In this document: positions 31,212 to 33,636 of the stretch, one piece after another | Numbering within the stretch: position 1 is the stretch's first letter | Layout: the number at the start of each line of letters is the position of its first letter | Source of the DNA: Peristeroidobacter soli | GTDB lineage: Bacteria > Pseudomonadota > Gammaproteobacteria > Steroidobacterales > Steroidobacteraceae | Reading direction: 5' to 3' | NCBI RefSeq assembly: GCF_004138485.1 | Contig: NZ_RYEV01000005.1 | Coordinates: 1,102,827-1,166,826, forward strand | Length of the DNA: 64,000 nt | Translations under genes and position numbers: made by a program | Notes under the pieces: model-generated | What the model was told of the DNA's origin: nothing | Database searches by the model: none | The model's input: only the letters and a program-made list of their open reading frames with translations

Positions 31212-31214
31212 ATG

Positions 31215-31511
31215 ATGCTCGAGATATTCAGGTCCACCACATTTGATTGCTGGCTACGCGATCTGCGCGACTCGCGTGCTCGGGCGCGCATAGAGGCGCG
31301 GATTCTGCGGTTGTCTCGTGGAAATGCGGGCGATGTGAAGTCCGTCGGTTCGGGCGTGAGTGAGATGCGAATCGATCACGGGCCAGGTTATCGCGTGTAC
31401 TTCACGCGGTGCGGTCAGTTTGTGATTCTTCTTCTGTGTGGCGGCGATAAGCGTACACAGCACGCCGACATCGAGCGTGCGATCGAGATGGCGGAAGATT
31501 GGAGCGCTTGA
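31215..31511 (+). CDS. RelE/ParE-superfamily toxin (HigB-like)
   Basis: A 98-residue protein of the addiction-module killer group. It begins MLEIFRSTTFDCWLRDLRDS, with SRARARIEARILRLSRGNAGD and GYRVYFTRCGQFVILLLCGG in the core and KRTQHADIERAIEMA near the end. Members are ribosome-dependent mRNA interferases or gyrase poisons; which applies here is not clear. Two in-frame ATGs (31212 and 31215) are possible. The partner antitoxin gene follows after 2 bp. Confidence 0.85.
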   Translation: MLEIFRSTTFDCWLRDLRDSRARARIEARILRLSRGNAGDVKSVGSGVSEMRIDHGPGYRVYFTRCGQFVILLLCGGDKRTQHADIERAIEMAEDWSA

Positions 31512-31513
31512 CC

Positions 31514-31813
31514 ATGGTGCGCAAGAAAGAAAAGTTCTCTCGTTACGACGTTGTCGACTACCTCAAGACCGAGGAGGACATCGCGGCCTATCTCGAAGCC
31601 TGCATGGAAGAGGCGGGGGACGATGCCGCTTATATCGCCGCGGCGTTGGGAGACGTCGCTCGTGCGCGCGGCATGGCGCAACTTGCAAAAGACACGGGCA
31701 TCTCGCGCGAAGGTTTATATAAAGCGCTCTCGCCCGACGGCAACCCCAGTCTCGCAACAGTGCTCAAGGTCCTCAAAGCGCTGGGATTGAAGTTGGCGCC
31801 CAAGGTCGCGTGA
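31514..31813 (+). CDS. HigA-like antitoxin with helix-turn-helix
   Basis: A 99-residue putative addiction module antidote. The central and C-terminal part, RGMAQLAKDTGISREGLYKAL followed by PSLATVLKVLKALGLKL, is a Xre/Cro-type helix-turn-helix. It should neutralise the upstream toxin and repress the operon. GGAG (31501-31504) within the toxin gene is its likely ribosome-binding site. Toxin-first order is typical of the HigBA group. Confidence 0.85.
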   Translation: MVRKKEKFSRYDVVDYLKTEEDIAAYLEACMEEAGDDAAYIAAALGDVARARGMAQLAKDTGISREGLYKALSPDGNPSLATVLKVLKALGLKLAPKVA

Positions 31814-31895: not shown

Positions 31896-32432
31896 TCAAT
31901 CAGACGCCATCCGGCGTCGCCAATGGCGCTTCTCGATCCGTCTGACATCAGGCGATGCGGCAAGCTGCTGCAAGTACAAAGCGAGATGCGCCAGCTCGTC
32001 ATCAGTTGGATCGCCCAGGAAGGGCGCGACGCGGACCAGGTTTCCATAGTTCCGCGTATGTTTCTCCGGACTATCGTCAACCACCACCACTCGCGATAAG
32101 TCATAACCACGACGTTTAATCTTTCGCAGCGGCTTGGCCTGGCACCAGGCATCCAGCTCGAAGTTGCGAGTAGGTGTGCAGCGATCGCTGGCCCAAACAA
32201 ATTCCAACGACTCTGTATTCCGAAAGACCAGCGAGCAGACCGCGCGTGCATACGCAGGCGACGATGACGTCCACACCGCAAGCCGAAACAGCTTCGACAC
32301 GTGCTCCAGAAATTCCGGCAGTCCCGGGCGCTGATATAGATAGTAGGGAGCGACTTCGCACCGCGGTTCAATCGCGAGCGGCGTTTCCGTCGCGTGCACG
32401 AGCGTCTCGTCCAGATCCAGGACCAATAACAT
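31896..32432 (-). CDS. HAD-family phosphatase of the FCP1/NLI-interacting type
   Basis: A 178-residue protein starting MLLVLDLDETLVHATE, the catalytic DxDxT motif (Asp6, Asp8) of HAD phosphatases. Features of the NIF/SCP/FCP1 group include YYLYQRPGLPEFLEHVSKLF, LAVWTSSSPAYA and VVVVDDSPEKH. Eukaryotic members dephosphorylate proteins, but bacterial members are poorly known. A longer reading to 32480 or 32519 is open, but those starts lack good ribosome-binding sites. It is convergent with the antitoxin gene. Confidence 0.82.
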   Translation of the reverse strand: MLLVLDLDETLVHATETPLAIEPRCEVAPYYLYQRPGLPEFLEHVSKLFRLAVWTSSSPAYARAVCSLVFRNTESLEFVWASDRCTPTRNFELDAWCQAKPLRKIKRRGYDLSRVVVVDDSPEKHTRNYGNLVRVAPFLGDPTDDELAHLALYLQQLAASPDVRRIEKRHWRRRMASD

Positions 32433-32552
32433 CCGAGAATCCACGCTGGAAGTGCTGACGGTGGTCGATGGGCCGCTCATGCATGGAGCATGTTCGATCG
32501 CCAGGCGATCTGGCAACACAGCGGCGGTGCCGAATGCTCGCGGATCGAGAGA

Positions 32553-32893
32553 TGGTGCCTGGGACCGGAATCGAACCGGTACGGAGTTGCCCCCGAGGGA
32601 TTTTCGTACTCGCTACAGCTTTCGCTGCGACCCGCTGATGACAAATCAGTTGGCCTTTGGAGTCTGGACTTTCTCTTTGTCGTGTCCCGCTGTCGCGGAA
32701 GTTAGACAGGGGCCGTCAAGTCTCTACACTTTCCCGGGCAGGGCCCGGGCTTAGCTCGGGATTGCAGGCACGCGCGCGATCAGGCGGAGCGTGAGGCTGG
32801 TTCCCCGAATTTGACCCCATTCACACCGGCCGTTTCCGAGCCGGGTGCTCAAAATTTCAAGTCCCTTGCGTCTACCAATTTCGCCACCCAGGC
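32553..32893 (-). tRNA. tRNA-Leu (anticodon UAA) split by a group I intron
   Basis: Read on the minus strand, the 5' exon (32893-32859, 35 nt) begins GCCTGGGTGGCGAAATTGG and ends GGGACTT. The 3' exon (32604-32553, 52 nt) begins AAAATCCCTCG and ends with an encoded CCA. Joined, they give an 87-nt tRNA with a perfect 7-bp acceptor (GCCTGGG/CCCAGGC), an AGGGA/TCCCT anticodon stem, loop CUUAAAA (anticodon UAA), a long class II variable arm and an ACCGG/CCGGT T stem. A 254-nt intron interrupts it between U34 and A35. Without allowing for the intron, a normal tRNA search may miss this gene. Confidence 0.93.
32605..32858 (-). ncRNA. group I intron in tRNA-Leu(UAA)
   Basis: The 254-nt insertion follows U34, and its last base is G, the two hallmarks of group I splice sites. 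The core resembles the cyanobacterial trnL intron: GCAATCCCGAGCTAAGCC (P4-P6 region, minus strand, 32765-32748), GTGTAGAGACTTGACGG (32729-32713) and GACAAAGAGAAAGTCC (32681-32666). GACTT in the second block pairs with AAGTC in the third to form P7. A GC-rich hairpin with CCCGGG arms lies between. The intron is too short to encode a homing endonuclease, and none is seen. Self-splicing is expected but not shown. Confidence 0.9.
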
Positions 32894-32988
32894 ACGGGCG
32901 GGACGGACATTGTAAGCCACTCGGGGGCAGCGTGTTAAACTAAGCGCGCACAAACCATTACACACAGAACATAGCGCGACACCCCAGC

Positions 32989-33636
32989 ATGCTTGCACAG
33001 GTCGCTGCGACTTCGCCGCAGCCGCAATTAGAAGCGCGCGCCGTCCATCTCTGGCGCGGCGAGAAACACCTGTTACGCGGCGTGTCCTTTGCCCTTTACA
33101 GCGGCGAGCTGCTGCAGATCGTCGGGCCGAACGGCGTGGGCAAGACCAGTCTCTTGCGCTGTGTGGCGGGGCTGTTGCCGACGGAGCAGGGCGAGATCGT
33201 CTGGCAGGGCCAGGCGCTGTCGGCCGGGCTCGAGGGGTTTCATCGGGAGCTGGCGTATCTCGGGCACGTCAACGGCCTCAAATCCGACCTTACGGCGCTG
33301 GAGAATCTGCGCTTCGGCGTGTCGGTCCGGCGCGGCGTCACTACGGAGGAGTTACGCGAAACTCTCCAGTTACTGCACGTCGAGTCTTGCGCAGACTTGC
33401 CGGTGCGCTCGTTGTCGGCGGGGCAGAAGCGTCGAGTCGCTCTGGCCCGCATCATGCTGACGCGCGCGTCGCTGTGGATTCTCGACGAGCCCATCACCAA
33501 TCTCGACAAAGCCGGCATCGCGCTGTTCGAGGCGCGGATCGCCGAGCACATGCGAGCTGGCGGCATGATCCTCACAGCGGCCCACCAACTGCTGCTACAG
33601 GGCCAGCCCGACGTGCGCACCTTGGAGCTGCGCTGA
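32989..33636 (+). CDS. ccmA: cytochrome c maturation ATP-binding protein CcmA
   Basis: A 215-residue ABC ATPase with Walker A GPNGVGKTS (about 46-54), signature SLSAGQKRRVALARIM, Walker B LWILDEPITNLD and AAHQLL. SAGQKRR with ITNLD is the CcmA form. Together with CcmB and CcmC it releases heme-loaded CcmE in the inner membrane. It starts the ccm operon, about 95 bp from the 5' end of the divergent tRNA gene, and its stop overlaps ccmB. Confidence 0.95.
   Translation: MLAQVAATSPQPQLEARAVHLWRGEKHLLRGVSFALYSGELLQIVGPNGVGKTSLLRCVAGLLPTEQGEIVWQGQALSAGLEGFHRELAYLGHVNGLKSDLTALENLRFGVSVRRGVTTEELRETLQLLHVESCADLPVRSLSAGQKRRVALARIMLTRASLWILDEPITNLDKAGIALFEARIAEHMRAGGMILTAAHQLLLQGQPDVRTLELR

Follow-up and report, generated by a model that had tools for sequence, protein, structure and literature searches.

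The only gene for a UUA-reading tRNA detected in this cell is, with a probability of about 95%, interrupted by a trnL-type group I ribozyme intron, which is free of an endonuclease gene and was inherited mainly within the Steroidobacteraceae. The gene lies in the window, by which we mean the whole 64-kb stretch of DNA analysed, and has the following parts.

32859..32893, minus strand: 5' exon of tRNA-Leu(UAA), up to and including U34 (35 nt, ending in GGGACTT)
32605..32858, minus strand: group I intron, trnL type (254 nt, terminal G)
32553..32604, minus strand: 3' exon of tRNA-Leu(UAA), A35 to CCA (52 nt including CCA)
32909..32938, minus strand: sigma-70-like promoter TTAACA-18-TACAAT (consensus match, with 15 bases between the promoter end and the tRNA)

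Once the intron is removed, the joined exons give an 87-nt RNA that ARAGORN identifies as tRNA-Leu(taa), a canonical class II tRNA whose cloverleaf has the long variable arm and the UAA anticodon. The insertion point lies between U34 and A35, as in trnL introns. With its intron option ARAGORN recovers the interrupted gene with identical junctions; without introns it reports no tRNA in the whole 64-kb window. The original prediction of a 254-nt group I intron in tRNA-Leu(UAA), with minus-strand halves joining as a class II tRNA-Leu, an insertion exactly between U34 and A35, a U ending the 5' exon (32893-32859) and a G ending the intron, is therefore borne out to the base by the ARAGORN junctions and by a covariance model (R2, below). 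Its warning that usual annotation may miss the tRNA was also justified, as both intron-free ARAGORN and Rfam at gathering were blank for the window. The promoter consensus search returned two sites in 701 bases versus 0.1 expected, the other site being inside the intron on the plus strand.

The genome of the window comprises 9.37 Mb in 17 contigs, in which a tRNA model finds 45 intact genes. ARAGORN at the places given by the tRNA model assigns only the anticodons TAG, CAA, CAG and GAG to the intact Leu genes, GAT to Ile and two CAT to Met; no intact tRNA-Leu(UAA) was found among the 45 by the two programs. A blastn search of the gene against the same genome returned nothing but the gene itself and, on a different contig, a 38-nt 3' relic. 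Under established decoding rules tRNA-Leu(CAA) should not decode UUA, a codon that makes up 8 of the 2439 codons across eight ORFs of the window. Because no intact Leu(UAA) gene was found, Leu(CAA) is not expected to read UUA and UUA is in use, splicing of the interrupted tRNA-Leu(UAA) should be essential to the cell. The case for essentiality would be weaker if the tRNA model missed a UAA gene or if a gap in the 17-contig assembly hides one.

The relic (L033 1501-1538, contig C3 525,942-525,979) corresponds to a tRNA-Leu 3' end with 92% identity to the window's gene, and lies between two genes named by eye, one EAL-type and one antiporter-like. The genome also has only two intact CAU genes versus the three expected (initiator, elongator and Ile2), and it encodes a second group I intron of 301 nt in a CAU tRNA (L001 1452-1828, contig C2 near 566,168-566,472), matched by RF00028 at 48.8 bits. 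This tRNA was judged to be tRNA-Ile2, though ARAGORN says Met, a call that leans on what we take to be a resemblance to E. coli Ile2. The second intron follows the anticodon and has an additional 70-nt hairpin in the interval from the P7 5' strand to P3', which in IA introns is occupied by P7.1/P7.2. By eye, the insert of a cyanobacterial tRNA-Arg(CCU) intron (L334) resembles this hairpin.

Recognition of the window's intron depends on the model used. A check with the Rfam Intron_gpI model, proposed with the original prediction, gave a divided answer: nothing at gathering (50 bits), and 25.9 bits with an E of 1.7e-4 for RF00028 on the intron in a search space of only 651 bases. In the whole genome at E 0.001, RF00028 left the window's intron unmatched and found the second intron as its sole match, for which reason custom models were chosen for the surveys. 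One of these, R2, is a covariance model built from 25 trnL introns (alignment A2) on a structure predicted by RNAalifold, with the window's genus, every row of the Steroidobacteraceae-centred clade, L106 and L156 excluded from training; many A2 rows are titled merely Gammaproteobacteria, and one row (L168) branches with two rows from the window's order at a support of 76-77. R2 matches the window once in 64 kb, at 207.6 bits and E 4e-61. Among 13 further loci it found three trnL introns (L359-L361) and weakly matched the second intron (L001, 43.2 bits), and it had no match in nine intronless loci, which count as eight distinct places because L063 and L362 overlap. The intron match in the window is beyond chance, as a model lacking the window's own clade gives E 4e-61.

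The structural model is based on the window's own sequence, in which every drawn pair is standard; we presume IC3 as the subgroup label for this trnL-type intron. Its main elements are as follows.

32848..32855, minus strand: internal guide sequence AUUUUGAG, whose GAG pairs with exon CUU as P1, with U.G at the splice site
within 32848..32855, minus strand: AUUUU part of the guide sequence, which can pair with AAAAU of the 3' exon as P10 (five pairs)
32813..32818, minus strand: P3 5' strand (100% paired; both-side changes in 4 of 6 pairs)
32709..32714, minus strand: P3 3' strand (structure and alignment)
32733..32749, minus strand: P6a hairpin (structure and alignment)
32718..32722, minus strand: P7 5' strand, GACTT (structure drawn on the window sequence)
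32667..32671, minus strand: P7 3' strand, AAGTC (structure drawn on the window sequence)

Alignment A1 comprises 38 of 58 non-viral trnL introns; 14 introns longer than 600 nt, five others of at least 290 nt and one duplicate were left out, and the junction script missed 4 of the 13 relatives' loci (L056, L057, L059 and L061). Across the 38 introns 92.4% of 2559 cells are paired, versus 32.7-43.4% in controls with the structure shifted by 1-3 columns, and both sides change in 54 of the 72 pairs. Pairing is nearly complete in P3 (100% of cells), P4 (99.6%), P6 (100%), P9 (95.7%) and P9b (99.5%), and weaker in outer P8 (83%), P9a (81%), inner P5 (70%) and a 2-pair tip (50%). The group I fold of P2-P6, P8 and P9 is thus maintained through compensating changes, as in the trnL class, and the window's intron, itself one A1 row, retains the invariant positions of the alignment. 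The U.G pair of P1 at the 5' splice site is found in 38 of 38 rows, and P2 and P9b mostly retain their GAAA loops. P7, presumably the guanosine-binding helix here as in general group I anatomy, forms from GACTT/AAGTC (32722-32718 with 32671-32667), as had been foreseen; it is constant across A1, with letters preset by the search pattern, and therefore gives no covariation evidence. The expectation that the core blocks fit the trnL intron pattern likewise held, given the R2 score and the covarying pairs.

A pattern scan of genome contigs yielded at least 118 loci, and 49 of the 118 listed have trnL junctions. Together with 48 viral introns and 9 from the window's genus, these 49, from among the matches listed, make up 106 trnL introns that pass a filter on exon letters, which required a tRNA-Leu gene with ACTT / AAAATC junctions. 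All 106 end in G. Contiguous P10 pairs beside P1 number two in 41 introns, three in 45, four in one and five in seven, the remaining 12 being without the TGAG anchor used for this count.

The place of the gene is conserved in the family. On one side lies ccmA (32989-33636, plus strand), which encodes an ABC transporter domain and has cytochrome c assembly genes after it, and on the other flank a gene for an NLI-interacting-factor-like phosphatase (31896-32519, minus strand). Among 24 loci compared, ccmA adjoins tRNA-Leu(UAA) in 22 of 22 from the window's family, a count that includes the window's own locus and G001 twice; in the two from other families (L059 and L062) ccmA is not beside tRNA-Leu(UAA). 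The phosphatase neighbour is found in the window's own locus only. The ccmA-linked gene may be interrupted (for example in L050-L058, L160, L176 and L359-L361) or uninterrupted (L353-L358 and L362), and within the window's genus G006 and G009 are without the intron. The presence of both alleles at one ccmA-linked place suggests that the intron comes and goes there, within the genus as well. Nearby in the window, two overlapping small ORFs on the plus strand (31212-31511 and 31499-31813) look like a HigB/HigA-type toxin-antitoxin pair, the first with a Gp49-like (PF05973) match slightly under the cut-off. In the intron of a Steroidobacter sp. (L060/L176), GCGGTTA repeats lie in the P6 loop and again just 3' of the tRNA gene, which looks like the insertion of a repeat element into the intron.

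Beyond the observed gene, insertion site, covarying fold, lack of another UAA gene and synteny, we infer the splicing steps from group I chemistry. Transcription would yield the precursor of the sole detected UUA-reading tRNA, and this RNA would fold as a trnL-type group I ribozyme with P1-P9, in which a U.G pair in P1 would mark the 5' splice site. Guanosine held by P7 would attack this site; the released 5' exon would then attack behind the final G of the intron, while P10 would hold the 3' exon, and ligation of the exons would produce tRNA-Leu(UAA). Over longer times the intron would be gained or lost in place next to ccmA.

The original prediction implied that such an intron would be rare in this setting, which was not upheld. 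At E 1e-3, R1, another custom model, had matches in 96 of 196 genomes from the order (39 of them with more than 150 bits), and at E 1e-10 R2 had matches in 49 of 274 genomes from the class; both counts take in the reference genome as well as introns located in other tRNAs, with stricter filters for searches of more than 40 genomes. Of the best 30 loci in the order, ARAGORN called 25 tRNA-Leu(taa), left one uncalled and called four Val, yet these four have the same exon letters. The 87-nt tRNA query was used across the order to pick loci only and not as a count, because matches of about 84% could be other Leu isoacceptors. In 5 of the 274 genomes, two R2 matches share a strand and are separated by fewer than 500 bases (G538:C481, G452:C275, G368:C175, G400:C13 and G515:C1; one match is partial in the G400 and G515 pairs), and these may be either neighbouring interrupted tRNAs or nested introns.

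Intron phylogeny was inferred by maximum likelihood from 138 introns and 199 columns with a midpoint root; the input of 151 rows reduced to 138 distinct ones, seven judged duplicates having been taken out beforehand, and nine rows (four viral, two cyanobacterial trnL and three fMet) were dropped for absent block motifs. The window's intron and that of G010 (L052) are sisters (support 100) and belong to a Steroidobacter clade (nodes 84-100), which is nested in the Steroidobacteraceae-centred clade (99), among gammaproteobacterial introns. NCBI classes Steroidobacter under the Gammaproteobacteria. Introns cluster largely by genus and family, and support at the deep nodes is low, falling to 20. 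The cyanobacterial trnL introns stand separate, with Bacteroidetes rows and a single viral row as neighbours. The sister of this cyanobacterial group is an fMet row (L333; 99), and two Arg(CCU) rows (L112 and L133) sit among trnL rows; with introns of other tRNAs scattered in this way, some transfer between sites is likely, or else resolution is poor.

Larger relatives of the intron encode proteins. In the genome scan, 14 of the 49 trnL introns listed exceed 600 nt. Fifteen long trnL introns were measured: 14 have the insert in P6, and L258, the one viral intron among the 15, has it elsewhere. Ten of the long introns (L074, L077, L082, L093, L105, L125, L146, L151, L163 and L164; 684-706 nt) have in P6 an antisense ORF of 154-190 aa, HNH-type in the one of the ten proteins scanned; by title nine are gammaproteobacterial or muproteobacterial and one is from Klebsiella pneumoniae (L163). 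Four others from Chloroflexi and Bacilli bins (L076, L084, L100 and L152) have sense ORFs of 96-149 aa. A Pfam scan of three trnL-intron proteins gave one HNH match above the curated cut-off and two to HNH families just under it, and the protein of an initiator-tRNA intron is PDDEXK_5. The window's intron, with 254 nt and a P6 region of 23 nt, is without the endonuclease gene of a homing intron.

Among 119 matches listed from IMG/VR (L184-L302), at least 48 are trnL-type introns in tRNA-Leu(UAA). Ten proteins scanned from five such contigs included rIIA and rIIB (L187), rIIA (L197), and a phage DNA polymerase and helicase (L206); L226 gave a DNA ligase only and L245 nothing named, and at least three of the five look like real phages. 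Phage introns observed by 2014 were all in protein genes, according to a review (PMC3984707). Neither HNH genes in trnL introns nor group I introns in phage tRNA genes were reported in the titles and abstract openings covered by a limited literature search; print reports may exist. We tentatively consider, at rather less than even odds, that the trnL intron is one branch of a broad mobile lineage in several bacterial phyla and phage contigs, whose spread would be due to HNH endonucleases encoded in P6 (in Gammaproteobacteria on the strand opposite the tRNA) and perhaps also to tRNA genes carried by phages. Under that proposal it would not be a leaked cyanobacterial heirloom, and the Steroidobacter copy would be a settled, endonuclease-free descendant.

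A degenerate intron in a tRNA pseudogene, with UUA read by another tRNA, is very unlikely. While the RF00028 score under gathering and the 38-nt relic, a sign of earlier tRNA-Leu decay in the genome, would fit such a history, all drawn pairs are standard in the window's sequence, the invariant positions of A1 are retained (the intron being itself a row), joining the exons gives a canonical tRNA and searches of the genome found no intact UAA gene. That the intron came recently from a cyanobacterium is extremely unlikely. The tree, for all its weak deep nodes and midpoint root, nests the intron in the Steroidobacteraceae-centred clade and groups the cyanobacterial trnL introns apart, which outweighs the common insertion site and the R1 matches in 14 of 59 genomes sampled from the phylum of a cyanobacterium, a count over all tRNA sites that takes in the reference genome and was made with the stricter filters. 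Of the transfer or deep retention first proposed, retention within Gammaproteobacteria fits and a recent cyanobacterial source does not.

Homing or reverse splicing among Steroidobacteraceae, with the patchiness due to repeated gain and not loss, is a possibility to which we give about one chance in three. Consistent with it, the intron is present or absent at one ccmA-linked place even within the genus, two rows of the g18 genus (L317 and L319) inside the Steroidobacter clade hint at movement within the family, and related introns elsewhere have HNH genes. Against it stand the grouping of introns largely by genus and family and the lack of any relative of one HNH query protein in the window's genome or the 196 order genomes at E 1e-15, while the same search found the protein in 4 of 4 carrier genomes, its own source among them. 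In a separate search, the intron had no blastn match in plasmid and phage collections. Such movement concerns history and not splicing, and is compatible with the preferred reading of a trnL-type ribozyme inherited mainly within the family.

The intron fills an annotation gap, as genomes of this kind seem short of a UUA tRNA (here probably an AUA tRNA too) because interrupted genes escape default tools and the Rfam cut-off. The route by which trnL introns spread also becomes a testable question, since both alleles share a ccmA-linked place in one family and endonuclease-bearing relatives exist.

Cyanobacterial trnL introns, which R1 detects, are like the window's intron in their tRNA, U34/A35 site, U.G splice-site pair, final G and homologous core, and the group I introns of plastid tRNA-Leu(UAA) have the same site and traits. 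The window's intron differs from the cyanobacterial ones in its separate branch of the tree, and its P7 is GACUU/AAGUC. Closer in taxonomy, Vepritskiy et al. 2002 (J Bacteriol) reportedly described a 231-nt group I intron in the anticodon loop of tRNA-Leu(UAA) from a deep-subsurface gammaproteobacterium, which we liken to the window's by this description. In Azoarcus, a group I intron is placed after the anticodon of tRNA-Ile(CAU). Group I introns are also noted in tRNA-Ile2 of Acidovorax and Burkholderia by PMC8450103; these Ile introns are a related class, and the second intron of the present genome is also in a CAU tRNA, but their tRNA and site differ from those of the window's intron. According to PMC4853749, tRNA-Leu-TAA is interrupted by a putative group I intron in Beggiatoaceae (BOGUAY) and Candidatus Thiomargarita nelsonii, likewise gammaproteobacterial tRNA-Leu(UAA) genes, and that paper states that it did not determine the structure and type of these tRNA introns. 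Bacterial group I introns are mostly restricted to tRNA and rRNA genes, as stated in the review (PMC3984707). To these the window's intron adds one more of the trnL type, a kind already known and common in its order.
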